Shown here: positions 17,028-64,000 of the stretch, piece after piece
Layout of the letters: each line of letters starts with the position of its first letter
How positions within the stretch are numbered: the first letter of the stretch is position 1
From: Thuidium tamariscinum
Lineage: Eukaryota; Streptophyta; Bryopsida; Hypnales; Thuidiaceae
Length of the DNA stretch: 64,000 nucleotides
Direction: 5' to 3'
NCBI GenBank assembly: GCA_947034885.2
Contig: OX344758.2
Coordinates: forward strand, 8,434,501 to 8,498,500
Position numbers and translations under genes: made by a program
The notes under the pieces: model-generated
What the model was told of the DNA's origin: nothing
What the model saw: only the letters and a program-made list of their open reading frames with translations
Databases searched by the model: none

Positions 17028-18604
17028 TTACGGATGAATGTTCCAGTGAAGCTCACACATCACATTTGTCAGAAAAGAGTCAAAATGAATCGAGGACCAC
17101 CAAGGAACCCGAGGGAGTGCACGCCATTTACAGGTAGCTAATTCGTAGATCCATCCATTCTCGTGCTTCGTAGGGAGGTCGGTGTTGTCAGGCCATCCAT
17201 CCTCTTCTTCCAAAATAAACACAAACAGGAAGCCATTGCAAGCATGAATCCTGCAAGTCTGCTCACGCACCTGTGGCTGCCAAAAAACCCGTGGGAAACA
17301 ACTGTGCGTTTTCTCCTTCACCCATGATGTCGCATTCTCTGGAACAAAATACTCGGAGATAAAAGCTTCGTCCTCTCTTTTATCCCAGTAAAGTACGAAG
17401 AGACGGTCCTCCATGAGAGTATACGAAATCACGTTCCTCCCCCACCACTTGTCCTGATCCTGTCCGAAGTCGTAGTACTTTCCATCACGGCAATCATAAG
17501 CACAGGGACCTAATTTAGGTGCGCTCCAAAAGTCTTCATGCCAATTCCAATCGCATGCGATGCCAAAAATGCGACCCAGTGATGGCTTCGGCTTGGTCCA
17601 CTTTCGTATCTTAGAGTCGTATACTTCTGCTTCCACTGGCGGACCATGCTCCACTACAATGACCTTGTAGTGATATGTGTTGCGGTCCACGACAATCCGC
17701 ATCATGGTAAGCTTCGAAAACGGCAACAAGTGACAACCCGGGAGGTTTTTAACGACTCCAGTCATTGGGTTGATCACAGACATATAATTCATACCTAGTG
17801 GTTTCTTGTCAACGTAACACACTAGCCCTGCATCTGTCGCGCCATTCATGTGCACCCACTGGTATACTGTTGGAGACTTCAAGCTGCACAAAATTTTATC
17901 CGCCTGGGACAATCAGCCAAAAGTGAAGGATTTACCACAAAAAATACCGATATGAGAGTGCTAAAGTCACCCGAAAATGCCAGTGGAAAGACTAGAATGC
18001 TCTACCAAAAATGTCGATCAAAAGTTCAAGACAGAAGTAATTTGAAAAAAAGGATGAGACCAGCTCTGCACCTAAGGATAGCAAGACGATCTGGAGCATA
18101 AACATGCGATTCATGCCATCGATTGTTACTCTCATCTAAAATATGCAGCCCAAAATTGGAATATCCACCCCAAATGATTCGTGCGAACATCCTGGGAGAG
18201 GACTCTTTCAGTGCCAAGGTGAACTCCGAGGAGGAAGACTGCAAGCTCAACTGCCATTCCTTGGAAAGGGATTTGAGGCGGCAGATGCTGGAAAAGGGCA
18301 GCTTCGCAAACACGCGCTGCAGAAGCTCCATTGGCAGCGTGCTCCAGAGCGCAGGGCTCAGGACCTGCTCATGTTCGCAGCACGAATGCGTGCAAGGGGA
18401 AATCTCATCATATCGATGGGTGGCTTTGTTATTAGCCAGAACAAGGTCCAATTCTTCTTGTGATACATCGAAAAGAACTTCCCTCCGAGTCCCGAGATCC
18501 GTGTCTGCTGATGTGATTAGTCCGTCCAGCTTGTCTCGCAATGTGCGCGCGACTCGAAGGTAGTCACGCTTTTCATCTCGGGTTTTCTTGGCGGAGTGTT
18601 CCAT
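17028..18604 (-). CDS. F-box protein with beta-propeller-like C-terminal region, copy A
   Basis: The likely role is substrate adaptor of an SCF ubiquitin ligase, with the F-box binding SKP1. There are two coding exons: 18,604-18,072 and 17,883-17,028. The donor GTGCAG and acceptor TTTTGTGCAG join phase-correctly into 462 codons plus stop. The start ATG at 18,604 is the first in frame after a TGCAG acceptor at 18,634. An upstream non-coding exon ends near 19,383, giving a 5'-UTR intron. The F-box covers about residues 86-125 (LWSTLPMELLQRVFAKLP). The C-terminal ~290 residues carry a GLVCYV...INPMTGVVKNLP block and a VYDSKIRKWTKP block, as in plant F-box/kelch-like proteins, but canonical kelch repeats are not clear. 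The ligand is unknown. This copy looks intact. Copy B (40.9-42.6 kb) is a close paralogue in opposite orientation. Confidence 0.85.
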
Positions 18605-19400
18605 GCTACATGCTCCTCTTTCTAGTTTAGTGCCTGCAGTGCAACAAACAACATTCCAAATTTTCAGTGAACCTGGCAATCTGCGGGGTAACTATGGAAG
18701 GCGATATAAAAATTATGGAGGACTCTCGTGTCCTTGTGAAACCTGGAGGTCAAAGATATCAATCTGAAAGGACCCCTGTTTACAAAGCCATTACTAAACC
18801 CTACGCAGGACAGATTGCGTTGCATAGCAAGCACAGACTCTAGCCTTCTCACAAACCCTACTTGCTCTGCTCCAAAGCTAAGGAAGACCCTGAGACAGAG
18901 TTCATAATTCTTGTCTGTGGGGATCTCGAAAGCTTCAAAGGAAATTGCAGTAACTCGGCAAAGATGGCGTATTGTACTTAACCAAAAATCTAAATCGGTC
19001 ACAGATGTTAAAAGAAGACCGTTTGTGAATCTCATTCTCGGCAGTAGGAAATTGCCAATTTAGTTGAAATTGGCACTTCGAGAATTCAGATCGCACACTG
19101 GGATACCTCCACTAACTTACAGTGTAAATTAGTCAAAACTTTCCGACCATCATACTTCAGTGTTAGGGCTTTCTGGAGTCCTAATAAAGAAGTTTATGCA
19201 ACAGCGAGCATCGATTCAATCAGAGCACGAAAGTGTCGAACTGCATTTGGCATAATTCACATTGCATTCATAACTCATGCTTCCAAAATCAGCAACTTCG
19301 AAGACGAGAGAGGGAGAGGGAGGGAGAACCTATGCAATCACACTCTGGGAAAAGTGACTGCAAAACTTCAGGCGAAAATTGCCTGCGATTCTGAGACTCT
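18605..19400 (-). promoter_or_regulatory. 5' leader and UTR intron of F-box copy A
   Basis: Comparison with copy B (40,080-40,933) gives an exon ending AGAATCGCAG at 19,383 and an intron to 18,634. Copy B has a normal GT donor (GCAG then GTAATTTT). Copy A has GC at the same place (GCAG then GCAATTTT), a possible GC-AG intron. CT-rich microsatellite (CCCTCTCC-type) lies just inside the intron at about 19,300. The open frame on the minus strand at 18,664-19,035 is interrupted in copy B, so I treat it as non-coding. Confidence 0.5.
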
Positions 19401-33218: not shown

Positions 33219-36200
33219 TCAGTTCCACTGGTTGGCAGCAGCATCCCGGTGTCTAGCCTCTTCTACCCTAGCAAGCTCATTCATTGCATTCTCACTCACT
33301 CGGCTATTGAGCAGCCTTTGAGCGATTCGATCCTTCACAGTAGGAGTTTTCTTCAGCAATGCAGTCAATCCACCTCGGGCTCTCTTCTTTCCTCCTCTCA
33401 TCTTGACATCATTGTCGAACTCTTCCCCAAAGGAATCCTGAAATCCTTGATGGCTACTTGCCAAAGCGGCATCTCTCAGTACTACCTGATTATGCTCTCT
33501 ATCTCTATTGGATTGTTTTCGCTTGACCATGACCCTATCTTCTCTTTTCTTTCTCACCTCAATTTCATCCCTCTCTCGCACATTTGCAATTGCTTGAATA
33601 GCCAACTCAGCAGCAGAAATGGATGACTCAGCACCCACAGATGGACTCGAAGCAGAATGAAAGCCTGATATACTGGCCTCTGTGAACTCTCCCATAGGCT
33701 CTTTCTCGGCTGGTTTGGACTTTACTTCATCAATTTCTGGAGTTCGCAGAGGGTGTCCATTTTCGTCGCGAGGGATGATGGGACCGTGAAGTGGGCACCG
33801 GCGAATGTCCCGTCGAGGGCAAAGACCTCCCTTCTTTAATGGTGCTCGACATGGAGTGATTTCTCTTTCAGGGGGTTTGTAAAAAGAAGAACGAACATTC
33901 ATTTCCGCAACCTTCTCAACTGGAATCATTGCCTCACTGTCAAATCTACCCCAGTGATTTTCCATCTCCAAACCCCGCTGATTGGCGGGAACGTCGCTCT
34001 TTGAACCCCAACTGTCCAGGAATGCACCGTAAGAAAGCACAGGGGCCTTTTCTAACAACTCTGCTCTTGGACCGGCAACCACTTTTTCCTCGTTTGCTCC
34101 AGGTTGAGTAACTAGAGGTAAAATGCTTGGTTCCTTATTTCTCGGAACAGACTTTTCGGAATCTGCAGTCCAGAATTCACGTTAGAGATTGAAAATGGTT
34201 TGAGCAATGTGGTCCTAAGTCGTTGGTGAACATTATAGCTCGTTCAACTGATTCCAGGCTCACCTACAAATACTAATCTTTCGCTCAGTCAAAATACATA
34301 CGTACAAAGTCAAGTAAAATAGAGCAAAGTCTTCAAATGTTACCAAATAAGGGTCTGAAGGTCAAAACAACACAGTTTCAACCCTCAAATCCGCTGGGCC
34401 ACTTACCTGAGACTTGTTCAAACACGATTTGCAGGAAACAAAACAAAATCTCACCTTTTACAGTAATGACGGCATGTGAAGGAGTTGCAGATTCATCAGG
34501 AGCCTTGTACGCCTCCATGTCTCCTGCCTCCCAAATTATATCCTCATCGTCAACTTCGCCAAGTGTAGACCCGCTTGCCGAAGCTCTTTCCGTACGATCA
34601 ATTCCTAAGCTTTCGCACTTGGTGAGGGAATCCAGCAGTTGTGTACGCAAGTCAATTACCTCTTTTAGCAAGGTATCTCTAGGTCGACTATCCGAAGGAT
34701 CCACCCGCATCAGAACCGATAGCCATTCCTGGGTGGCTCTAAGATGATTTAAATCCACTAATTTATGAAGGTCCCGAAGAGTATCAAATACTGCTGAATT
34801 ATCTGTGGTTTCTTTCTGCATCAATCGGATGAACTCTTTAGGCCCACTCCATAACAAGAGACATTATCAATTTCAAGGGCAGTCAATTTCTCCATCAGGT
34901 AAGTTTCCATGTGACAGCACGTTCTCTCAGCACAGAACATCCACTTCAAGAGAATGCGAAAACTTCATAAAGAAATGCATACCGGTTTCTCAGAAACAGC
35001 GACCTCGACAGGAGCCTCCTCATGAAGTTGCCGCCTCAGACTGGAATCACCATATTCTTCATATTCATCCTCATCTCCAAATTCAAGAGTCTCCAGACCT
35101 GCCTCCAGAACAGGTTCATTGCTTTCTGGTGCCGACACAATCTCCGGCTCAAGTATCTGGCAGCATTCAGCTATTTCGTTCAGGGTTGATTGAACTTCTG
35201 CTCTCAGTTCAGGGAAATCTTGGCGTAACCTCTCATACTTCTTCTGGATCAGTGCCTAGATACAAGATTTCAAATACTCAGATACAGATAAGTAGAAAAT
35301 AAACCAAACGTATTCCGACAAAACTACAAACCCCTGCATAATCCTATCCTGAAAGATTTTCTCAAACACATAAAAGTAGGCGGCACTCAAATGTACTAGA
35401 GAACACGCCACTTGCTGAGTCACACCTGTGTTCTTGCAAGTTTTTCTTGTCGCTGCTGCTCCGCCAACGCAGCTGCTGCCCTAACATTGGGAAACTGCAG
35501 CCTAAGGGTCTTTTTCAAATATTCGTACCCCAAACGGACTTGCTTGTAGTGCAGACCGAAGGAGTCGTTCCACTTCTCTACAAGTTCCATGCTTGTGGTT
35601 CTCAGCAAGGCAGCTCGATCTGGAGGCTTTGGAAGAGGGTAGTCGTCTCTGTACCCAATCGTGAGAAGCATAAACGTCTCGAATTTTGGAACTAATAGAG
35701 ACCGGAAAAGCTTCGACCGCATGAATAGCTCATCAATAAGTAGAACTGCGAGGAAGCGCACCTGTCAAGAGACTCTTTTCATCAGCACCTTGAACGGAGC
35801 TTTCAACAATCCGTGATTAAGTGAGCACCTTTGAACGTTAGGTCTGAGCATGATGTGAACAGAAAAATGCGTAAAGCCGAAAGATCTTCCTAGCCACATA
35901 AAATTCTTCACAATTCAAATAATCTTGCTTGACTTCTAAATCAGACACTCTCCTCTTGGCAATCGAGGCCGAACTTACGCTTCGTCAATAAGGCTCAGCA
36001 CACTGCTAAGACCTAATTCCGGATTTCCAATTCTAAGATACTGCAGAAATTAAGCTAGTGCGTGGATAATGATTTTTCTGAAATAAATCCCTGATCCTCG
36101 TCAATTAGATTACACATTGAAGACAATTTCAATGAATTGACAATCAAGAAGACTCCTGAAAACACTGTACTCCCTAACGTAAATTGCTCGACTTCACAAA

Positions 36201-40079: not shown

Positions 40080-40933
40080 ATTGAGTGGCAATGCGCAGTC
40101 TAGAAGGACCGAAGTGGAGTTTACTGAATTACTCCCCTACACTTTGTAAATCATCGATCTGTCACTCCTGTGAGTGAGTAACATATCGACTTCAATCGTT
40201 GCAAACTGTCTCAGAGTCTGAGAATCGCAGGTAATTTTCGCCTCAAGTTCTCTCTCTTCGAGAGCGTGATTGCGTTGGTTCTCCCTCTCTCTCTCTTCTC
40301 TTCGAAATTGCTGATTTCGAAAGCACGCGTTATGAATGCAATGCGGATTATGTCAAATGCAGTTCGTCACTTTCGTGCTCTGATTGAATTGATGCTCTCT
40401 GTTGCATAAACTTCTCTATTAGGACTCCAAGGAGCCCTAACACTGAAGTATTATGGTCGGAAAGTTCTGACAAATTTGGCTGCACTATAAACAGTGGAGG
40501 TATCCTTGTATGCTATTTGATTTCTCCAAGCAATTCCGCCTATTGCCCAAAATGAGATTCACAAGCGAAATCTCCTTTAATATTTGTGACCGATGTAGAT
40601 TTTAAATTCAGTACAATACGCCTTCTTTGCCAAGTTACTGCAATTTGAATTCCTTTGAAGCTTTCGAGATCCCCACAGACAAAAATTCCGAACTCTGTCT
40701 CAGCGTCCTCCTTAACATTGGAGCTGAGCAAGTAGGGTTTGTGAGAAGGTTAGAAAGGTTGCTATGCAATGCAATCTGTCCTGCATAGGGTTTAGTAAGT
40801 GTTTAGCAAACAAGGGTCCTTATAGACTGACAGCATTGACCTGCAGTTTTCCATACTTTAGAAATAACCTTCCTTAGTCACCCGTTAGATTGTCAGGTTC
40901 ACTGAAAATTTGGAATTTTGTTTGTTTCTGCAG
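40080..40933 (+). promoter_or_regulatory. 5' leader exon and intron of F-box copy B
   Basis: The leader exon ends GAGAATCGCAG at 40,230, followed by the donor GTAATTTT. The intron ends TTTGTTTCTGCAG at 40,933. A CT-rich run (CCCTCTCTCTCTCTTCTC) lies near the start of the intron. Alignment with copy A supports this layout. No ATG in the leader is in frame with exon 2. Confidence 0.5.
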
Positions 40934-42569
40934 GCGATGAAATAGAACGAGGAGCTTGTAGCATCGAACTCTCCGCCAAGAAAACCCGAGATGAAGAGCG
41001 TGACTACCTTCGAGTCGCACGCACATTGCGAGACAAGCTGGATGGGTTGATCACATCAGGAGACACGGATCTCGGGACTCGGAGGAAAATTCTTTTCGAT
41101 GTATCACAAGAATTGAACCTTGTTCTGGCTAATAACAAGGCCACCCATCGATATGATGAGATTTCCTCTTGCGCACGTTCGTGCTGCGAACATGAGCAGG
41201 TCCTGAGCCCTGCCCTCTGGAGCACGCTGCCAACGGAGCTTCTGCAGCGCGTGTTTGCGATGCTGCCCATTCCCAACATCTGCCGCCTCAAATCCCTTTC
41301 CAAGGAATGGCAGTTGAGCTTGCAGTCTTCCTCCTCAGAGTTCACCTTGGCATTGAAAGAGTCCTCTCCCAGGCTATTGGCAGGAGTCACTTCGGGTGGA
41401 GTTTCCGGTTGTTGGCTGCATGTTTTGGATGGGGAAAACAATCGGTGGCATGCATTGCATGTCGAGGTTGCAAGTGGCCCGGCAAACGTCTTCAGGTGCA
41501 GAGCTGATCTCATCTTTTTTAAATTCAAATTACTTCAGTTTTGAACTTTTGATCGCTTCTTTTGTTAGAATATTCTAGTCTTTTCCTCTGGCATTTTCAG
41601 TTGACTTGAACATTTTCGACCGATCTTGGTATATTTTGTGGAAAATCCTTCACTTTTGGCTAATTATCCCAGTCGGATAAAATTTTGTGCAGAGAAGATC
41701 CTTTAGAGTGGGTGCACATGACTGGCGCGACAGATGCAGGACTGGTGTGTTACATTGAAAAGGACCCCGAATCAAGTTTGAATTATATATTTGTGATCAA
41801 TCCAATGACTGGAGTCGTTAAACCACTCCCGGTTTGTCACTTGTTGGCGTGTTCGGAGCTTACCATGATGCGGATCGTCGTGGACCGCAACACATATCAC
41901 TACAAGGTCATTGTAGTGAAGCATGGTCCGTCGGTGCAAGCAGAAGTATACGATTCTGAGGTCCAACAGTGGACCAAGCCGAAGCCATCACTGGGTCGCA
42001 TTTTTGGCATTGCACACGCTTGGAGTCGGAATCGTCGCTCAATCTGGAGGGCACATGAATTAGGTCCCTGTGCTTATGACTGCCGTGACGGAAAGTACTA
42101 CGACTTCGGACAGGATCAGGACAAGTGGTTGGGGGAAAACGTGATCTCGTATGCCCTCATGGAGGATCGTCTCTTTGTACTGCACAGGAATGAAAGAGAG
42201 GACGCAGATTTTATCTCCGAGTATTTTGTTCCAGAGAATGCGATCTCATGGATGAAGGAGAAAACGCACGGTTGTTTCCCAGGGGTTTTTTGGCGGCCAC
42301 AGGTGCGTAAGCAGACTTGCAGGATTCATGCTTGCAACGGCTTCCTGTTTGTGTTTCAAAAGGGTGGATGGCTTTTGGACACCGACCCCTCTACGAAGCA
42401 TGAGAATGGATGGATCTACAATTTGGCTACTTGTGAGTGGCGAGCACTGCCTCGGGTTCCTGGGTGGACCACCGTTCATTTAAGGTCTTTCAGAGAGGGG
42501 AATTTTGAGTTTTATGGGTGGAATTTTAAACCGTTCATTTGTGAGCTTCATTGGAGTATTCAACCGTAG
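40934..42569 (+). CDS. F-box protein with beta-propeller-like C-terminal region, copy B (start codon uncertain)
   Basis: This is a close paralogue of copy A in the opposite orientation. Coding exons are 40,934-41,495 and 41,693-42,569, joined by a GTGCAG donor and a TTTTGTGCAG acceptor in phase. The F-box reads LWSTLPTELLQRVFAMLP, and the C-terminal blocks GLVCYI...INPMTGVVKPLP and EVQQWTKPKPSLGRIFG are kept. The long frame is open to the stop at 42,569. Copy A starts at an ATG in AGCATGGAA; here the same codon is ATC, and no in-frame ATG occurs before the middle of the F-box. So either another start or leader is used, or translation has been lost recently. The C-terminal half has several small in-frame indels relative to A. 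Function is as inferred for A. Confidence 0.65.
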
Positions 42570-50600: not shown

Positions 50601-51140
50601 AGGTGGTAAGAAGTAAGAAAACCTATACCGGATATATAATTTAAAAGTTGTAGGAGCTCCACCACTCACAATTAAGTTTGAATTACAAATTTTGTTAAAA
50701 CTAAATTTTCATACCTCATTTAAGTATAGTAAAATAAATTTTTGAAATTTTTTCTAAAATAAAGATTAGTTGGAAAATCAAGTTAAGTTTCATTTCCAAA
50801 AATCCATTTGAGATTTCAACCCTCAATCAAGAGTTATAGACAAATTTCAAACAAGATGTTTGAAAAGGTCAAAAAAATTCCCTTTCAATGCCTCCTTGAA
50901 ATTTGTCTATAACTTTTGATTGGAAGATCAAAATCTCAAATGGATTTTTGAACATGAAACTTAATTTGATTTCCCAACTAATTTTATTTCAAAGTTTTAT
51001 GAAAAAGTTATTTCATTGTACTTAAATGAGGTACAAATTTTTTGTTTTAGCACAATTTGTAATTCAAACTTAACTATGAGTGGTGGAGCTCCTACAACTT
51101 CTAAATTACATAAGGTAGAACCATCTATAACCAATTAGTA
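47630..51140. repeat. Right arm of the large inverted duplication, with foldback element 50,580-51,140
   Basis: It is inverted relative to 10.4-15 kb. It contains the NTIYAPP-type ORF (49,873-50,181, plus strand), which is also present on the minus strand at 11,037-11,237 with diverged ends. It also has a complete hairpin of the 5,553 foldback family (arms GGTGGAGCTCCTACAAC and GTTGTAGGAGCTCCACC). It lacks the MITE at 10,711 and the TIR element at 15,000. No supported gene was found. Confidence 0.6.
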
Positions 51141-53267
51141 AAGGTATTCTAGACATAATCTAATGTAGTGCAAGGCAAAGCAAATATTTTAGGGGGTGCA
51201 ATGATAGAAATGGTAGGGTTTGCAAAAACTTTGGTGATTTTATCACACAAATTGAACTCACATTTTGAAAGGCAAAAAGTGTTACAAACCCATAACCAAT
51301 GTCTAGACTCTTTCAACTACAATCATTGAAGAACTCCTTTTTATTCATCACTTCCTACTTTCTTGCTCACTAGTTTGGAACATGTGTTATGATTTTATTA
51401 GTTCCAATCTTAAAAAAGTAAAAAACATGCATTCCAAGCTTTGGTTGGAAATTTGTTTGATCCTTACTAGAAATAAATGTAGTCTATAGGTTGGAGATGG
51501 GGTGATGATTGGTTACGGATGGATCTACATTATTTCACATGGGTTGTTCTACCTCCTACCATTCCATCTATATTTAGATATATTTTCTTCTCTATAGACA
51601 AACTAACTATAACATTGATGGAAAATGGTTACAAATTACATTGGTTAAATATTCAATGAATTCTTTGTGTTTTTGGCAAATCAATTATCTTTACAATCAT
51701 TTGTTTCTCTTCATATCGTTCATGGACAATTATTGCAAGCCTTGAAAAGGAGAAGGGGATCAAATATCAATTAAGAATTTGACAACAAGTTGACAAAAAA
51801 ACTAGCAAGTTCTCGCCAATTGACAAGACAAGGATGCAAAGGCATGGTTGTTGTCATTTTGGGCAATTATTTGTCATAAACTTCTCATCTTGAACTACAT
51901 TTCCTTGTAGTGTAAACAAGACAAGTTGGTGAATATGAAGAGTCCATTCAATCCTTTCAAGGGAATGATCACTATGGGACCAAATTGTACCATTTCAAAA
52001 TAGATTTATATTTTCTACTAGATAAGGATTTAATTTTTTGGCTAAGAATCTAGCATTTCCATTAAAATATTGATGAAGTCATAAATTTGGATGAAAAGTC
52101 TATGAATATGATTGAAAAGTGTTTCTGGTCCAAGAATTGAATGAATGTTGTCATACAATGCTTTACTAAATTTTAAGTGATTGTTGTCTTCAAAAAGTTA
52201 AAAAAAGGACGAAGCCCAAACTTATCTTACAATAGAAAGGTATAACAATTGCAAAATATTCTATTAGTTTAGTATCAATTGTATCTTGATTAACCCCTGA
52301 AGGAACAACTTGCTAAATTTGGCAATATAGTAATTTTGGGCAAGTACATGTAACTAGAGATTTCCATATTTTTTGCCCAGGGTTGCTAGCAGGCGAGCGG
52401 GGGAGCAGGAGCCTGTGAGCTTGTGAGCGGGAAATTAATTTTGAAAAAAATTTCAGTTGACCACCTATGATCGTGGATTTTAGGGTAACAAGAATTAGAG
52501 TTTAGTACCTATGATCGTGGACTTTAAACGTTTAGGCGACGAAGAAGATATGATGTCTATTTCAAAGATGTGACTACAAAAGTCACTTTTTGTTTTCTTC
52601 TTCATTTTCTCTTTGCATACACCTATGATCATGGACATTGTATACACAAGAGTAGGGGTATAAAATCTAATTGTGAGAACCAAAGCACTTAGGTTTATAT
52701 TGTCGATTAGCTGTAATTTAGAATATTAAATCTTTTTTATATAGAGATAAATTAAGGAATGTGAAGGCAAAATGAAAACAGCAAAGAACATCTCATAAAT
52801 ACCCAAACCTTGAAATTACAAAAGGCATCAATTTGAAATACTCTAATTTGATGCAACTCATTCACTAAATAAGTCAATCTAGGTGTTGTTGAAAGAAGAT
52901 TGATTTTGAGATGTATAATGAAGAGAAAGAATTGGATGGTCAATACGTAAGGGTTTGTCGAATCCGACAGAATTGTACGTGTTGCCTTCTTGCCTCAAAA
53001 TTTATTTATTTATTATTTTTGGTGTAGGTTTTGGGAGAACTAGCAAGAGCCATTGCCTTAGATGTTTTCAAAACAAAAATTAAATAAATGGAAAGAGGAA
53101 TTTGAGACTTCCAGAAGTAGCCATAAAACACACAAATCCAATCCAAATAAAATCCAAACAATACACAATAGTAAGATTCAAGAGATTAGTCAATCTCAAG
53201 AATCTAAGTGGTTGTGGACTCAGTCACTGAATCTGACCCTATAGAGGACTCTGAGGACTCTCGTCCC
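51141..53267. other. AT-rich intergenic DNA with repeat fragments
   Basis: The stretch 51,280-51,500 is an inverted fragment of the 14.1-14.3 kb repeat. A CCTTGTAGTG terminus lies near 51,917. A TTAACCCCTGAAGG terminus starts at 52,290 (truncated TTAA-type element), followed by a short G-rich run (GGCGAGCGGGGGAGCAGGAG) at about 52,392. The palindrome GTCGAATCCGAC is at 52,957-52,968, just past the 3' end of the ParB/methyltransferase-like gene. No gene is seen. Confidence 0.45.
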
Positions 53268-56200
53268 TCAGATGTAGAAGCATCTATAAACTGTAAGACA
53301 TTGAGGGCGTAAGTGTCTTTGCGTCATTTGGATTTGGAACAACCAAAATTTGCAACAACCAAAATTTGCAAAGGCACTTGCCATCTGCTCAGCATACGGT
53401 GGTAGCTCGAAAGGCTTCTCTGGACTAACGACAAGCCTTTGATTTTGTTCCATGACCTCTCTCAAGATCAATCCACAACCTCTGCAAAAATTGAAGACAT
53501 TATATTAGTCTTTGCAAATGTGATATGAAGAAAAATAATAAAGAATGAAAGAAGTTTCCACTTACTTACTGGATTTTCCCTTGCGAACAAACTTGCGAGG
53601 CACAATAGGCGCATCTTGCACATCCATTGTCAAGTCCACTGTTGCCTCGGGGGTTGGAGCCACTGCCATTGATGTTGATGACTTCTTCATGGGCTTCAAA
53701 ATGGCATTGAAAACATCTTTGTCCCCCTCAAAAGCTAGAATGTTGCAGCCAATTCCTCTACAAGCCAAAATGCAAGCACCTAGGGCATTCATGTAATGAA
53801 AATGTGTTAGAGAGATGACAAAATTCTTACAATGACATAGAAGTGTGAAATATTAAAATTGAAGACAAACCTGTGGATGCCGTGCAGTCCACAATGACAT
53901 CGCCTTCATTGCTTGTGGCTTCAAGGAGGAGGGTGAAGAACCTTGGATCTTTTTCACGTGGGCCTCTCCATGGCTTCTTCCCATTCATGGAGATGTCATC
54001 TGCATGCATGTAATTCATCAGCATGTCATCATTCTCAACATCCACCCCAGCCTTCTTCATCATCTCAGTACGCTTGAAAGAAAATTTGGATTCGCCTTTT
54101 GCTTTGAGGTCCTTGACAAGGAGAGTGACTCCAAACTTCTATGTCTGCAACATATATGACACAAGAACATTAGAGATCAATAAATAGAATTTTAAAAGAA
54201 AATAGGTTACAAAATTGAAGCATCTGTACTAAAATTACCGTCTTTGTGGTGTCCGTTGGCGAGGTGAGATGCATGCGGTTCATGCCTAGCCAGTCCTTCT
54301 TCTTCTTGAAGTCAAATGCTTCGCAAACTCCTGCTAGATCTTCCCTGGATGCAATGCTGAAGGAGTGAAACACAATGATGCATCCATCATCGTGCAGATG
54401 CTCTACTGCAAAGGTGCATGCCGATTGCAAAGCATTAGCTTCTAAATCCGCATTCCAATTTGGCACCTCCTTCGACGTAAGAGAAATGCCTAGCACAGGC
54501 AAGTTCTCTAGACAGTCAACGAAGATGACATCAACACCAGCCCTTGCATTTGCTACACCTTCAAACATGCGAGTTTTGCCCACTGCCATCTGCAAAAGCA
54601 CATTTCAATAGAATTTCAATATATTAGTATTGCATACTTTTCTATCTTTCAAAGCAGATTCATAATATTTAGTACAACATTAGGAATTTTAGGGTCATTT
54701 AAATAAAAGTCTGAGCTGAAAAAGAAATTACATTTGTCAAAATGTTCAACAATTTCTAGAGAAAACAAAACCATATGAAAGTAGGTAATGTTGAGTAGGG
54801 AAAAACAGAACAAAATAGTGGTTTAGGTGATTCCGTCGGATCTGACGGAATTGTAAATTCTGCCTTGTTGTCTTCCTAATTTTTTCAAATACAAAAATTC
54901 TTCAATACAAAATGTAATTGTGGACCACATAGAAATTTTTCTTCAATGTTTCATTATAGCAACTTTGGTACATAGCATTCATATCATTGACAAGAAGTAA
55001 AATAAATTTTAGCAAAGATGTTCAAATAGATCACCTTAACCAAGTACTTCAAGACCTCGTTGTAGGCACCCTGTCTTTTGTCCTCCATATCCATGGCAAT
55101 GTCCTCAATGCAAATATTAAGGATTAAATCCTCAGTCTCTGGCACATCATCGTCGGAGAGGACCATGGCTTGAGTGACTCGTGAAATGACATCTTCAGTG
55201 AGCTGTGAGATGGTGACTTTCCTTGGTACCCGCCTTGTGTTTGATCTACAGTGGAGGAAGCTAAGACTTGCCCTTTCTCTTCCACTTTCTTCTTTCCCTT
55301 GGCCTTAGTCTTCTCTTCCTTCTCCTTCTCTGCTTCTTTCTCCGCCTTCTCGGCCTCTTTCTCCGCCTTCTTTGCTGATTTCTCTGCTTGCTTTTTCTCC
55401 TTGGCCTCCACGATGAGTTGATTCTTCACTTCTTTCTTTCGGTCCAGTGCATCCCTCTTGTTGATGGCCCTCTTCCTGGCATCATCATCCATGCCGATGA
55501 ACTCGTCAACATCCTCCAAATCTACTACCCCTTTGCCCTCCAATGATGCCCTGAGCTGAACCTCCGAATTATGGGTGAACTCCAATGTGCAGTCCAAGTA
55601 CCAACCCGCGCCAGAGAGATGAGCAGTAGTGTAGGTGCGCAATTGATGTAGGCTGAACATGCATGAAGGCGAGTTGCGGTCGAGGAAGCGTGGAGGGAAT
55701 TGAGGGAGGTCCAGTTTTGCAATGGCCCCCTTTGCTTCAAGCTCTAACTTGAAGTACCTGTAATTCAATCATAATGAGTTATAAGGAGCACTGTTCAATC
55801 TCAAAATGAAAGAGTAAGAGCAAAATATATCATGGAAGTTGTAAATTGCAGTCCTTTAAAGGGTGGAAAAGTAGCCAAGACAATACGAATTCAAGATTTA
55901 TAATGAAGTAGAAGATGCTATAGAATTTCTATAATTAAAAAGTATACAATGATGCCACAAAATTCCAAGTAGTAAAGAAAATGACATACCGATAAAGGAC
56001 TCTACGCACCACAGCGTTAGAGCCTTCGTGAGATGAAAAAGTTTGGCCCCTCTTGAAGTACTTCGAGCCCTTGAAGTAATTCATGAAGCCATGTTCCCAA
56101 ATCTTTTGCCTCCATCCTTCAGTGTACTCTGGTAGTCGCTCTGGTTCTGGTTTTACGTTGTAGTCGATGGAAAGGTTGTCTTCCTTTACAATTTTGTCGA

Positions 56201-59200
56201 AGAACTCCACTGCAGCATCTTCTATCTGAAAAATGGGATATAGTCAAGAAGTTCAGTTGTATCACCAAATATTTAAATGAAAACAACTACCAAGTGTTTT
56301 ATTATTCAATGAAAGGAATTAGATATTGAACACTTACCCCAGCGTACCAAGTGCACTTCACTAGAAATTGAGGAAGTAAGAGTTCGGAGACAGGTTTGGG
56401 TGGCAACTTCCTTGATTCGCGTGAAAGAATAGAAGAGTTCCACCATTGAAGTATCTTTGTCTTGTGCTTTGCAGTCATCTTGCAGGTGGCGACCAACTGG
56501 AGCTTCTCCAAAGTCATTTCAGGCACCTCGTAGTTGCCCCAATGCTTTTCCACCTACAAGAAGATTTCAGTTAATTTTTCAATACGGATTTGAACTGACT
56601 TTTGAAGAATTTCAGTGAAGATGGAGACTAATTACTGAATTGTACCTCTTTAAGGAAGTCCACTCTGTTTGCTGGGTTGGCCACCGCTAGCAATTTGAAC
56701 ATCTTGACCATGGCTGCCTTTGTTCGTTCCCTTGCTCCCAACCTCATTGCTTCGGCTGCTTGTAGTGGTACACTTCCAGTCTCTTGTGTGGCCTCCATAT
56801 ACCTTCTTACAGCTGCATCTGCAGCTTGTGAAATTTCTTGCTGCACAAAAAACCCAGATAGATGTAAAGTCAATATGGACATTGATGATTTTAAAAAATA
56901 TAAATATATTTATCAAAAACAAGTTGAAAGACCTTACCCGGAAGATGAAAGATGTGAAGACCTCGGGTTGAATTGAATACCACTTTTTAGTGACCTTGTG
57001 CTCAAGGCACCTCTTCCTCTCTGCAGGCCTAAGTAAAGCTGCAAACTTTGCTATGGGTAGCATCCCGTACTTCTGAATTTGGTACAAGGTGTGTACCAAG
57101 TTCGTCTTCACGTGGGAGTCTTCTACAGACCTAAAAACCATTCAATGCAACATAAGCCGAAGATCTAAACTACCTCCAAGAAAGTACAACATTCAAATTG
57201 AATATTTTTTTGAAAAATAAAAACAATAAGAAAGAAAGAACTTACTTGTTTACGTCATGCATGACTTGCATGACAAGTTCATTCCGACCTTTCGTGTCTA
57301 ACATGATAGAATCAACACTGCAGTGCTCCTCCGAGTGCTTAGAGATGTAGTTCATCCACGCAATTCGTCTGTGGTTCCCATCGCAAATGAAGATCTTCAA
57401 GTTCTTCAAGAACTGAAGCTCTGTCTTGGACTCAAACTTCTGTTTGAAGACTTCATTCTTCTCCTTCCAAATGGGGGCCCAACTATCCATCTCCTGTTGG
57501 GTGAACTCTTTAGTGTTTCCATCTTTGTTTGTAGCTGACACATAGAATACCGCAGCACCATCTCGATACCCTCCACCTGCAAACTCTTGCTCTAGCTGTA
57601 GGATATCAGATGCCAATGCGGGTCTGACCATTGGCATTGCCACAAGCCTGCACAATGGTATGTGCATTCGAAATACCTCCTCAGGCTTCATCCGAAGTTG
57701 CCCCAAAAGCTTCACAACATCACCTTTTTGAATGTGCCGGAGTTCTTCTTCTGACATCACCTTCTCCTCCTCACGGTCTTGAATGACAATGTCCATGTCT
57801 TCTCCTTCCTCTCCTTCTCCTTCTCCTTCTCCTTTCTCAATCTCTGGTTGTCTCTGGTTTTGAGAGGAAGGCGTTTCAAAAATTGTTTCCACTTCCACGG
57901 TTTTGGCTGGGGAAATGTCCATCTAGAAGAACAATTTCAAGTTCAATTAATGGAATGTTCATAGAAAACAAAGGCAATATAAATTGCAATGAAACTGTTG
58001 GAACAACAACAACAATGGTTTACTTCAAGTGGAAAATAGTACTTGCAATTGCATTGTCAAATACATCTACAAAAATGAAGTAGCTTGAATAAAGATAAAG
58101 CCTAGCCTGGTATATAGTGTTTTTGAGAACAAAACTCTACCTAGTCTATGATTTGAACATCCTCATCCTCATCCTCATCAGAGCTGAGGATGATGATTTC
58201 ATCGGACTGAAACAAGTCCATATTCACCACACTCTCCCCTGTGTACAAATCAAAAAACTCTACACTGTTGGAGTTGGAGGGCTCATAATCAGAGGGATAC
58301 TCCTCTTCCTCACTGAAAGATGAGAACCACGGGCCATTGCCCCTAGTCCCACTAAGCACACTTGTTTGAAATGCGTCAACGGCATACTCCGCAGCATCCA
58401 TGACGTCATCAAAACTCACCAAATTTTGGTTTGCATCACTTTGGTCAAGTGAAATGGACACCCCTGGCTGAGGCCACATCTGGGGCTTGGATGGTCCACC
58501 AACGTCCATATCTGGGACAGTCTGCTTCACAGGACTCTCTTCCTCCATAGATAAAACCTTCTGACGCTTGCCCCTTCCTTGGCCACCCTGGACACAAAAG
58601 ATTAAACTTAGCATTCATTTGCAAAAAAATTATTCAATAAAATATAAACAATGCATTTAGCTAAATTTCCAGTTTCAAATTAGATTTTAATTAAATATTT
58701 CCTATCATTTAAATCATGTCTTTAGGGTCACTTTATGAAAGTCAATAGCAAATCAAAACATTACTTCAAGATATTTCAACACTGTGATTGTAAGTGTACC
58801 TGTTGCCTCAATTCTTCACTTTTCTTACCAACACTTTTATCTGCAACAGAAGTCTGAACAAACAGAAATATATGTGAGTAACAAACCGTAATTAAATAAA
58901 AAAGTGAAAAAAAAGATTTGAGTGACGTCCATGGGTACCATGAGGCTCACTGAAAAACCAAGTCGGATCCGACTTGGTTTTTCGGTGAGCCCCGTGCTAC
59001 CCATGGACATCACTCTTTTTTTTTAGTTGCCTGCAATGAAGCTCCAGGGCTCGCTCACACAACTAGACACTTTGGAAAAAATCGGGACACCCCAGCCGGC
59101 GCAAGCAGGGAGTCACCACGACGCGGGAACTCCAGGGTGCGCTCACGCCGCGACACTCTACCAAGCTGAATCCAATACTTAGAAAAAAATCGGGTCTACC

Positions 59201-59825
59201 CCAGTCCACGCGAGCACGGTGTCACCACGACGCAGGAACTCCAGGGTGCGTACACGCCGCGACACTCTACCGGGCTGAACCCGACACTTAGAAAAAAATC
59301 CGGTCTACCCCAGCCCATGCGAGCACGGCATCACCACGACGCGGGAATTCTAGGGTGCGCTCACGCCGCGACACTCTACCAAGCTGAACCCAACACTTAG
59401 AAAAAATCGGGTCTACCCCAACCCACGCGAGCACGGCGTCACCACGACGCGGGAACTCCAGGGTGCGCACACGCCGCGATACTCTACCGGGCTGACTCAT
59501 GGAGGGAGGAAGGGACGAGAGTCTCATGGATTCAGATCACCCTAAGATCTTTCAAAGCAACTAAACTTGCGCACTTGTGCACTAGGCTGAGGTCCCCAAG
59601 TGCCGTGCAAGGGCTGAACTGAACACGCACCGTGCACAAGGCACAGCTAAACACCCGCGGTGCATAGGAATGCGCATCACGTGCGCCTTGAGGACGGGTG
59701 CACATCACACGACCAACTGGAGCTCAAGAAAACAAGATATGGTTAGGAGATCTTACCTCTTGCTGCACCTCCGGCCCATCTGCATTGTCTCCAACTCGCG
59801 CCCGGCTCCTCGTAGTGCGCACCAT
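53268..59825 (-). CDS. ParB-like domain plus permuted DNA-methyltransferase-like fusion gene, 13 exons, possibly interrupted
   Basis: Exons by GT-AG borders: 59825-59757, 58853-58800, 58587-58141, 57922-57246, 57130-56938, 56840-56646, 56553-56338, 56225-55990, 55757-55035, 54589-54239, 54138-53871, 53779-53566, 53481-53268. Order: basic start MVRTTRSRARV; acidic region ending SSDEDEDEDV; ParB-like region with DGNHRRIAW near 57,382; helical middle; Lys/Glu coiled coil near 55,380; then VDVIFVDCLEN near 54,530 and, downstream, VDCTASTGACILACRGIG across exons 11-12 with FEGDKD. The last resembles the SAM-binding loop of beta-class methyltransferases, in which the catalytic DPPY-type motif comes first; here that place reads DCLE, so catalysis is doubtful. 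The frame is interrupted about twice (end of exon 3, within exon 9), so it may be a decaying gene or have an independent start at exon 4 (ATG 57,922). Function is unknown. ParB-methylase fusions are best known from phages and plasmids. Confidence 0.7.
58921..59014. repeat. Near-perfect 94-bp palindrome centred on GGATCC
   Basis: The left arm starts AGTGACGTCCATGGGTACC and the right arm ends with its complement, GACATCACT. The centre at 58,967/58,968 is the 12-mer GTCGGATCCGAC. It lies in the first intron of the ParB/methyltransferase-like gene. Flanking A-rich and T-rich runs extend the potential stem. Confidence 0.85.
59040..59500. repeat. GC-rich tandem array, ~109-bp unit, about 4 copies
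   Basis: The unit AACTCCAGGGTGCGCTCACGCC ... CGACACTCTACC ... GAAAAAATCGGGTCTACCCC ... GTCACCACGACGCGGG begins near 59,129, 59,238, 59,347 and 59,455, with an incomplete diverged copy from 59,041. It is strikingly GC-rich against its surroundings and lies inside intron 1 of the fusion gene. The ORF on the minus strand here is a repeat artefact. Confidence 0.85.
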
Positions 59826-62547: not shown

Positions 62548-64000
62548 ATGGCAAGCATTCGCGTAGATGGTCATCAGGTTCCGTTAGTCTTTCCTTTAGA
62601 CCTAGAAGGTCATGCTACTGTATTCAGCCACTTGCTTCATGTTCGATTCAAGTTTCTAGAGTCATCTATCTATGTTGAAGAAGAGCTCTATTCTGAGTCT
62701 GGTGAATTACTTCAGTCAATCCCGCTTTCAAAATGTCTCTCTGATGAAGGGCATTGCTGGTATCTAGGTCTTGGGAACTATAGGGCTTACAGTCTCCCTT
62801 TGTCCATGTTAGCTTTGTCCACTAAGATAGCAAGTCGCCAGTCTGATAATTCTACAGTGAACAAATCTTCTGCACCTGAGAGTGCTAATCCTACTACTCT
62901 TGTAGGATGCTTCCCTACATTAGTACGAAATGAATTGCCTACTAAAGCAAAGGTAGAGTTGTTAGGGACTATTGTTGAACTATCTAGTGAGTCTGAAGGC
63001 GAGTTTCCTTCCTTGACTCCTGACATGGAACCTTCCTTCGTCAAGAAAGAGTCCAATGACATCAGTCTTACGTACTCTATACAGAACATCTCCACTAGTA
63101 CTTCTGAGCAACATACCTTTTCACAACAAGTTTGTCATTCAAGTGTGGCTAGTATAACCAGTATAATGAAATGCTTAAAGGGACTTTCTGGTCTTCACCG
63201 TTCAAGAAATGAACTCTCCACATTAGATATGAACGCTGTGAAGCACCACCAAGTGGAGTTTCTACCACCTACTTACAACGGAGATGCCATCTTTGAACTA
63301 CCGCCGTGTCGGGCCTCTTCTTCTTCATCTGCAGCTAAGAACTTGGAAGGAATGGACAAGCGGTACGACGGACATGGTTGGTGCAAGCTAGTGACAACAA
63401 ACATCCACAACTCGGACAATTTGAAGTTTCGTAAGTCATTATGTGCTGGCCATCTGATTTGTGAAAACCCTAGCTGCGAGTACTTGTCTAGGACTTCTAG
63501 GAAAAATGAAACAGAATGGATAGGTTCTACAATACTTCCTTTTGCAGTAGGAGTCGTTCCACCAAAAGATTGCAAACTAGTTTGTAAAGTTTGCAAAACA
63601 ATACCTACATGCTTGAGCACCTGTGATGCTAGAATTTACTACTGCTACAATGATAACGCAAATATGACTAGGGCTGCTATTCACCTAGGAAACCACACTC
63701 ACCCAGTAGCAAAAGGCATGTATAGAGATTCTACAAAAGAAATTACCGAACTCATAGCAGAACAAGTTGCCAAAACTCCTTCAGCTACAAATTCCGCCAT
63801 AGCTTTATCTGCTAGCAAAGACTTCCTTACGAACCACCTTTTTCACCACGGAGAAGGAGAGAAGAAGATATTGAAGGGAGAAGAAATGGAAGAGGTCATG
63901 GATCGCTTTCAGTTGCTAAGTAGTCCTAGTATACGAAATATTATCTCCTCTTTCCGATCAAACAACCAAGGAGGGGTCATTGACAACATCATGACCATGA
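62548..64000 (+). CDS. Long open gene with Cys/His zinc-binding cluster, runs past window end
   Basis: An uninterrupted frame of 484 codons runs from ATG 62,548 to the window end with no stop; the 3' part lies outside. An in-frame TAG about 18 bases upstream and a G at +4 support this start, and a TATA box is 81 bases upstream. The first ~260 residues are Ser/Thr-rich without a recognised domain. Residues ~278-390 hold clustered metal ligands: Cys299, 305, 310, 342, 346, 349, 355, 359, 366, then His379, 383 and 385 in RAAIHLGNHTHPV. Cys pairs ending in H-x-H resemble the WRKY-GCM1/FLYWCH zinc-binding domains at the front of Mutator-like and related transposases. That family link is inference. 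After this comes a helical region (EITELIAEQVAK). It is divergent from the ParB/methyltransferase-like gene. Confidence 0.8.
   Translation, partial: MASIRVDGHQVPLVFPLDLEGHATVFSHLLHVRFKFLESSIYVEEELYSESGELLQSIPLSKCLSDEGHCWYLGLGNYRAYSLPLSMLALSTKIASRQSDNSTVNKSSAPESANPTTLVGCFPTLVRNELPTKAKVELLGTIVELSSESEGEFPSLTPDMEPSFVKKESNDISLTYSIQNISTSTSEQHTFSQQVCHSSVASITSIMKCLKGLSGLHRSRNELSTLDMNAVKHHQVEFLPPTYNGDAIFELPPCRASSSSSAAKNLEGMDKRYDGHGWCKLVTTNIHNSDNLKFRKSLCAGHLICENPSCEYLSRTSRKNETEWIGSTILPFAVGVVPPKDCKLVCKVCKTIPTCLSTCDARIYYCYNDNANMTRAAIHLGNHTHPVAKGMYRDSTKEITELIAEQVAKTPSATNSAIALSASKDFLTNHLFHHGEGEKKILKGEEMEEVMDRFQLLSSPSIRNIISSFRSNNQGGVIDNIMTM

Follow-up and report, generated by a model that had tools for sequence, protein, structure and literature searches.

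In the moss Thuidium tamariscinum, a stretch of 64,000 nucleotides (assembly GCA_947034885.2, contig OX344758.2, positions 8,434,501 to 8,498,500; hereafter the window, whose numbering is used throughout unless another locus is named) carries a DNA transposon that encodes, besides a transposase, two accessory open reading frames (ORF1 and ORF2). ORF2 is predicted to join a probable ParB/Srx-like domain to a well supported, circularly permuted amino-methyltransferase-like domain, and a palindrome with the core TCGGATCCGA is conserved in introns and other noncoding DNA of the elements, between subfamilies whose synonymous sites are saturated. The best explanation, to which we assign a probability of roughly 0.45, is that ORF2 encodes a VANC-like accessory protein that would bind the parS-like palindromes of its own element. 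As the sequence-specific DNA-binding protein of the element, the ORF2 product would recognize these palindromes as a dimer, in the manner of ParB loading at parS, and its binding or spreading could keep the noncoding DNA of the element transcribable, an anti-silencing role comparable to that of VANC in the VANDAL Mutator-like elements (MULEs) of Arabidopsis. Binding may alternatively mark the element for, or assist it in, transposition. The part played by the methyltransferase fold would be that of a module for S-adenosylmethionine (SAM) binding or DNA recognition.

The initial annotation had described a single gene of 13 exons at 53268–59825. Its GT-AG exons with fitting phases were recovered, every one on the minus strand, as two reading frames instead of one: ORF1 (59825–58141; three exons, 189 aa) and ORF2 (57922–53268; ten exons). 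The TAG closing ORF1 at 58141 and the ATG of ORF2 at 57922 were kept in 30/30 aligned close copies (the window and 29 loci, L032–L060), and the single fused gene was ruled out by this conserved stop; the GT donor after the TAG, needed for splicing of ORF1 exon 3 to ORF2, was missing in five of the 30. Exon 1 of ORF1 (59757–59825) was set by GT-AG and phase reading, exon 2 (58800–58853) is in phase 0 and might be joined to ORF2 exon 1 as well, and exon 3 (58141–58587) encodes an acidic tail ending in EIIILSSDEDEDEDVQIID (58141–58200) before the conserved TAG. We take this ORF1 end to resemble a SUMO-interacting motif. Because an AG directly precedes the ORF2 ATG in 30/30 copies and ORF1 exon 2 is in phase 0, ORF2 may share the first exons of ORF1 via exon skipping.

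Behind an acidic N-terminus, exon 1 of ORF2 (57246–57922) encodes the ParB/Srx-like domain (with its core at approximately 57772–57246 and the motif DGNHRR). It is followed by exons 2 to 5 (56938–57130, 56646–56840, 56338–56553, and 55990–56225, all by GT-AG and phase reading) and by exon 6 (55035–55757), which includes a Lys/Glu-rich linker and has a one-base frame break near 55234. This break was found in 0/29 other aligned copies, and exon 6 is open in 19 of them. The permuted methyltransferase-like part begins in exon 7 (54239–54589) with the motif IV region, which reads VDCLENLP in the window and mostly DCPENLP in the family, and continues in exon 8 (53871–54138), which terminates in motif I (DCTASTG) and whose start was set 6 nt past the first AG, since a TAG would otherwise fall in frame. 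Exon 9 (53566–53779) supplies the remainder of the SAM-binding half, including ACILACRGIGCNILAFEGD, and exon 10 (53268–53481) the C-terminal tail and stop.

These coding exons, real as annotated, are part of a larger transposon of 14,895 bp that starts at 52378 and extends over the window end by 3,272 bp. The left end was placed where homology with two other copies ceases; it (52378–52440) begins with CAGGGTTGCTAGC as a short imperfect terminal inverted repeat, and the right end, in the stretch past the window end (locus L065, 1–3272), gives an inverted match to it of 83% over 42 columns. Target-site duplications of 10 bp were present in both copies read to both ends: in the window element ATTTTTTGCC on the left (52368–52377) and ATTTTTGGCC on the right (L065 3273–3282, outside the window) differ by one mismatch, and a copy at C1:48.04-48.06 Mb has a perfect duplication, TCAAATGAAT. 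Their length falls within the 8–11 bp given for MULEs (PMC6446971). The transposase gene opens with MASIRVDG in a first large exon on the plus strand (62548–64000), runs on to L065 2737, and is oriented head-to-head (divergently) with ORF1 and ORF2. In its product we read a zinc-finger-like block and a D-D-C/H layout; a SWIM-like finger is also present. No Pfam MULE profile matched it and the sole SWIM match (E 0.1) was under the cut-off, though a MULE is the best fit because of the duplication length, the SWIM finger, and the layout. The element is an autonomous-type DNA transposon with short terminal inverted repeats and a SWIM-type MULE-like transposase. The window copy itself is dead or non-autonomous, since its ORF2 frame break is unshared and its transposase has an in-frame TAG at approximately L065 155, where copies on C1 and C6 read through.

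Copies of the ParB exon occupy at least 235 distinct places in the genome, no pair less than 2 kb apart; the searches covered the best 150 of 603 and the best 150 of 636 candidates for this exon, the best 150 of 751 for the transposase, and the best 150 of 1439 in one more copy search, and the counts are lower bounds. Several subfamilies were distinguished, roughly 95, 70, and 62% identical to the window. Among the best 150 transposase matches, 122 had a listed ParB copy no more than 25 kb away (median 7.7 kb), 119 of them head-to-head, and the share of the genome within that distance is at most 3.2%. Purifying selection acts on the ParB exon, with ratios of nonsynonymous to synonymous substitution rates (dN/dS) of 0.09–0.16 for the window against six close copies and of 0.11 at dS 1.25 against locus L085; synonymous sites were saturated against the other 11 copies compared. 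The copy number together with the ratios of 0.09–0.16 excludes a chance reading frame. Per-site variation among the 30 aligned copies was 1.6% in exon 7, 2.8% in exon 6, and 2.3–6.4% in the introns. Listed ParB-exon copies were also denser on C11 (17.5 Mb), at 4.3 per Mb vs. 0.2–0.9 per Mb on C1–C10 among the matches listed, and C11 could be a sex chromosome or a heterochromatic one.

The assignment of ORF2 exon 1 to a ParB/Srx-like domain is probable on the basis of conserved residues and weak profile matches. The pattern I-P-x-C...V-R-P...D...L-E...Y...G...F-Y...D-G-N-H was kept in 16 copies with identities as low as 60%, D131, G132, N133, and H134 being invariant and R135 present in 90% or more of the 16 sequences. 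The DGNHRR motif noted initially in a ParB-like context was confirmed; its equation with Box II (P motif) is our own reading. DUF1015, which itself presumably covers a ParB/Srx-type (SerK) fold, matched 4/16 members (best E 0.0041), as did phrog_1033 “ParB-like partition protein” (4/16, best E 0.005, on the GNHRR core), and DUF6551 matched one of the 16 (E 0.17). Both DUF1015 and DUF6551 are named among the domains of ParB-CTPase-fold fusion proteins (PMC12704722). No NCBIfam match was obtained with two ParB members, no close relative of the ParB part in the viral or prokaryotic contigs searched, and no match to PF02195 in the whole genome searched in single frames; a single chance-level match in phage records (E 4) was discarded. 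The helix-turn-helix and C-terminal dimerization domains of canonical ParB were not found, the 680-aa N-terminal part having no Pfam match except a sub-threshold RPC4 (E 1.1). Membership in a canonical ParABS system was rejected.

The palindrome TCGGATCYGA occurs three times, with one further variant, in the window element, in introns or 3' of ORF2, and not once in the other 59 kb examined. The site 3' of ORF2 (52955–52970) is degraded in the window (GTCGAATCCGAC) and reads GTCGGATCCGAC in many copies, and a 22-bp palindrome in ORF2 intron 6 (54830–54851) reads ATTCCGTCGGATCTGACGGAAT, with one change from the perfect 22-mer that occurs 19 times among the loci examined. Intron 1 of ORF1 contains a long palindrome module (58911–59024) that is centered on AACCAAGTCGGATCCGACTTGGTT, recurs in one or more other copies (three times in L064), and adjoins tandem repeats of approximately 108 bp (59025–59495) seen as self-matches of locus L031. 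A further occurrence, TCGGATCTGA, lies in the transposase intron (L065 1063). Genome-wide, MGTCGGATCYGACK was counted 580 times forward and 582 times in reverse vs. two and three for the reversed-pattern control, and the forward counts were 115 vs. 0 for AGCTCGGATCCGAGCT and 1,507 vs. 124 for the core TCGGATCCGA. Sites among the first 100 results per search were compared with the copies: 41 of 51 MGTCGGATCYGACK sites listed on chromosome 1 lay within 15 kb of a listed copy, a zone that makes up 0.9% of the stretch, and 36 of 50 listed AGCTCGGATCCGAGCT sites lay as close to one. At least one palindrome site was present in 30/30 methyltransferase-side and 25/30 ParB-side loci.

Across the 30 aligned copies, a mean of 1.7% departed from the majority base per site in the intron-6 palindrome vs. 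6.1% in the rest of the intron, and CpGs within the motif were intact in 190/207 readings (seven columns) vs. 69/110 for other noncoding CpGs (four columns). In a divergent element on C11, with approximately 62% identity in the ParB exon, the core is kept within a 62-bp perfect palindrome whose flanks differ. The window and C11 elements have five palindromic 10-mers in common, two of which are at least half G+C, namely TCGGATCCGA and the terminal-repeat ACGCTAGCGT; shared palindromic 10-mers of at least half G+C arose in 34 of 1,000 base shuffles. The ORF1-type sites (AAGTCGGATCCGACTT) form perfect palindromes of 16 to 108 bp with arms that vary between copies yet remain complementary, and in 18 distinct 90-bp sequences of this type pairing was kept at every position in 11–18 of the sequences, and as many as four pair types occurred outside the core. 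The invariance of the core among the 18 follows by construction because they were picked by a 16-base core.

Several results weigh against an ORF2 protein of ParB type that reads these palindromes. On the protein side, the profile searches with which the initial annotation had proposed to check the fusion gave 0/16 ParB-exon members for PF02195, leaving the weak ParB-family matches above. Reversed controls, made for three sequences only, reached a PHROG E of 0.024 (an unknown family), near the real best of 0.005, and phrog_1033 matched just two of the five members in that comparison. With a profile of the family, between a third and a half of shuffles scored at least as high as three canonical ParBs, and a fourth ParB did not appear among the matches; hhalign against one and against four ParBs gave no match, and a profile search of the PDB with the ParB part returned no ParB. 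Two AlphaFold models of the ParB part had mean predicted local distance difference test (pLDDT) scores of 37.7 and 38.7, too poor for fold comparison. On the DNA side, the palindrome 3' of ORF2 is no better conserved than its surroundings (4.7% vs. 4.1%), and ten of the 51 MGTCGGATCYGACK and 14 of the 50 AGCTCGGATCCGAGCT sites lay far from any listed copy. As copy counts are lower bounds, the far sites may adjoin further copies; five of the ten, at C1:12.00 Mb, stand beside a listed transposase and have a spacing identical to that of an element cluster at C1:11.93 Mb, two of the 14 (C1:37.90 Mb) are 9 kb from a listed transposase, and the remaining far sites are unexplained. As to the element, a listed transposase lies within 25 kb of only 128 of the 235 ParB copies among the matches listed, one pair inside a subfamily has a dN/dS of 0.30, and in the divergent 17-kb stretch (C11:79-96 kb) the match to ORF2 ends after exon 3, with neither the methyltransferase half nor the left end found. 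Beyond ORF2 exon 3, that stretch (L099 1–4900; C11:79.2-84.1 kb) is unlike the window element and includes a 374-aa open frame, which may reflect a nested insertion or a gene capture.

A fuller ParB–parS-like system is possible, if doubtful. In it, a ParB-fold, nucleoside triphosphate-dependent clamp with a dead methyltransferase would load at the element's palindromes, the flanks of which vary by subfamily, and would spread to block silencing or to organize the dispersed copies in the nucleus. It is likewise doubtful, though worth weighing, that the palindromes are bound by the transposase or by a protein of the host, ORF2 having some other job, for example as a helper in repair or integration, that involves no reading of them; the palindrome could serve either of these factors. 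The motif occurs in the transposase intron just as in the introns of ORF1 and ORF2, and the transposase is found as widely as ORF2. The transposases of MULEs are known to bind terminal repeats, whereas the palindromes of the window element are internal, the nearest approximately 580 bp from an end.

The palindromes might instead act as RNA, as loop-less intronic hairpins (of at least 90 bp in ORF1) for splicing control or small-RNA pathways, with ORF2 unrelated. The pairing kept across the 18 ORF1-type sequences, with its up to four Watson–Crick pair types, and the perfect palindromes of up to 108 bp speak for such a role, which we nevertheless hold unlikely: the ORF2 intron-6 and transposase-intron sites are only approximately 22 bp, and one core is common to sites with different arms, while pairing alone needs no shared core. 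Quasipalindromes can moreover be corrected by template switching, which could yield perfect arms without selection, and the perfect ORF1-type arms could reflect either such correction or hairpin selection.

The C-terminal part of ORF2 is well supported, from profile matches and motif order, as a circularly permuted amino-methyltransferase-like domain in which the SAM-side blocks are kept. PF01555 (N6_N4) matched 8/9 members (best E 6.4e-5), and the permuted arrangement that had been noted, motif IV-like before motif I-like blocks, was borne out; of the fusion originally proposed, this half is well supported and the ParB half probable. In member 1 the match covers profile positions 41–218 in order at 14.8 bits, under the curated cut-off of 26.7 bits. 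PHROG methyltransferases also matched (E 4e-4), as did DpnA (0.018 and 0.021) and MboIIA (0.56) in a PDB profile search that gave an unrelated hypothetical protein at 0.77, and a related methyltransferase query drew weak matches from 177 phage records, 19 of the 20 listed being annotated as methylase or methyltransferase. NCBIfam gave only CcrM (E 0.091, far under the cut-off), and no relative of this part was found in the viral contigs searched. Motif I reads DCTASTG or DCTTSTG in 30 contiguous readings. The motif IV tetrapeptide is DCPE in 33, DCLE in five, DCPK in one, and NCPK in one of 40 loci and in none is DPPY or any other [DNS]PP[YFW] form of an active amino-methyltransferase, which makes DNA methylation by ORF2 unlikely and agrees with the initial suggestion of a binding role. 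A prokaryotic or viral origin is plausible from the domain architecture; no close prokaryotic or viral relative of the ParB part was found in the contigs and phage records searched, nor one of the methyltransferase part in viral contigs, and the methyltransferase matches from phage records were weak. Two above-threshold matches to the LEAFY C-domain place the host among land plants or their close kin.

That ORF2 is nevertheless an active DNA methyltransferase marking its own element with N4-methylcytosine (4mC) or N6-methyladenine (6mA), for protection or activation, is accordingly improbable. The PF01555-type permuted fold, nearest PDB matches that are adenine methyltransferases, and a GATC at the palindrome center would suit it, and a bacterial permuted amino-methyltransferase does function in bdelloid rotifers (PMC8885841). 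Set against these are the motif IV readings of all 40 loci and the loss of 4mC addition by the rotifer enzyme when its SPPY is changed to APPA (PMC8885841). Of the two fates first proposed for the gene, mobile or domesticated, only the former stands, the gene being accessory to a DNA transposon present in many copies: a domesticated host gene of foreign origin with a transposon merely nearby, which the many introns and purifying selection might suggest, was rejected on a copy number (at least 235) far from low, with a listed transposase within 25 kb of at least 128 copies, 119 of the best 150 transposases head-to-head, and, in the two copies whose ends were both read, the gene enclosed by element ends that target-site duplications flank.

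The reading of ORF2 as a VANC-like protein that would bind its own element's palindromes has its nearest parallel in the VANDAL MULEs of Arabidopsis, which are likewise DNA transposons with an accessory ORF and a SWIM-type transposase (PMC5735166; PMC10398659; PMC6446971). The VANC motif, as here, is short, concentrated in introns and noncoding DNA, and partly in tandem repeats (PMC5735166), and motif variants again differ by subfamily (PMC5735166; PMC10398659; PMC6446971). The VANC21 motif YAGTATTAY is not palindromic, unlike the motif described here, and the word “methyltransferase” is absent from the main text of the VANC study (PMC5735166). Extra motifs or ORFs reported in MULEs include FAR1, PMD, DUF, SET, OTU, MutB, and unknown ORFs (PMC6446971). 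DNA transposons with TET/JBP dioxygenases are similarly reported to carry an accessory gene of DNA-modification type, although the enzyme is a different one and the transposons are apparently fungal (PMC12730594).

On the protein side, fusions of a ParB-CTPase fold with an N6_N4 methyltransferase are enriched in phages, and in phages and prophages they unite the same two domains in one protein (PMC12704722). ORF2 differs from them in being nuclear, intron-rich, about 1,000 residues long with a long middle, devoid of the catalytic tetrapeptide, and carried on a eukaryotic transposon, and no close sequence relative was found. With ParABS, in which ParB acts at parS, it shares a probable ParB-like domain with a GxHR box and palindromic sites on a mobile element, but ORF2 matches no canonical ParB profile. 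N4CMT of bdelloid rotifers is also a permuted bacterial-type amino-methyltransferase in a eukaryotic nucleus; it keeps SPPY, methylates, and belongs to the host, in fusion with a chromodomain, rather than to a transposon (PMC8885841). Among the top results from the open-licence PMC literature, none described a eukaryotic transposon with a ParB-methyltransferase ORF, and neither “plant” nor “transpos” occurs in the main text of a 2025 survey of the ParB fold (PMC12704722). Transposons with their own chromatin- or DNA-modifying accessory proteins and ParB-methyltransferase fusions in phages were each known already; the joining of both appears to be new, along with a palindrome shared by element copies as the possible docking site of the ORF2 protein. 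The palindrome offers a ready test, with one protein, one short site, and hundreds of genomic targets. If the ORF2 protein binds it, phage-type parts would here form a plant counterpart of VANC, and ParB-like clamps could possibly be studied in a eukaryotic nucleus.

Other features of the window include a long inverted repeat just outside the element (50633–51112), with 111-nt arms that are 86% complementary and 258 nt apart, probably an insertion resembling a miniature inverted-repeat transposable element (MITE). Two F-box ORFs lie in opposite orientation at 18026–18679 (minus strand) and 40918–41544 (plus strand), the second followed by a Kelch ORF (41685–42569, plus strand), and these are possibly a duplicated F-box/Kelch gene. 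An ORF at 33219–34082 on the minus strand has a strong DUF2043 match (E 3e-30).

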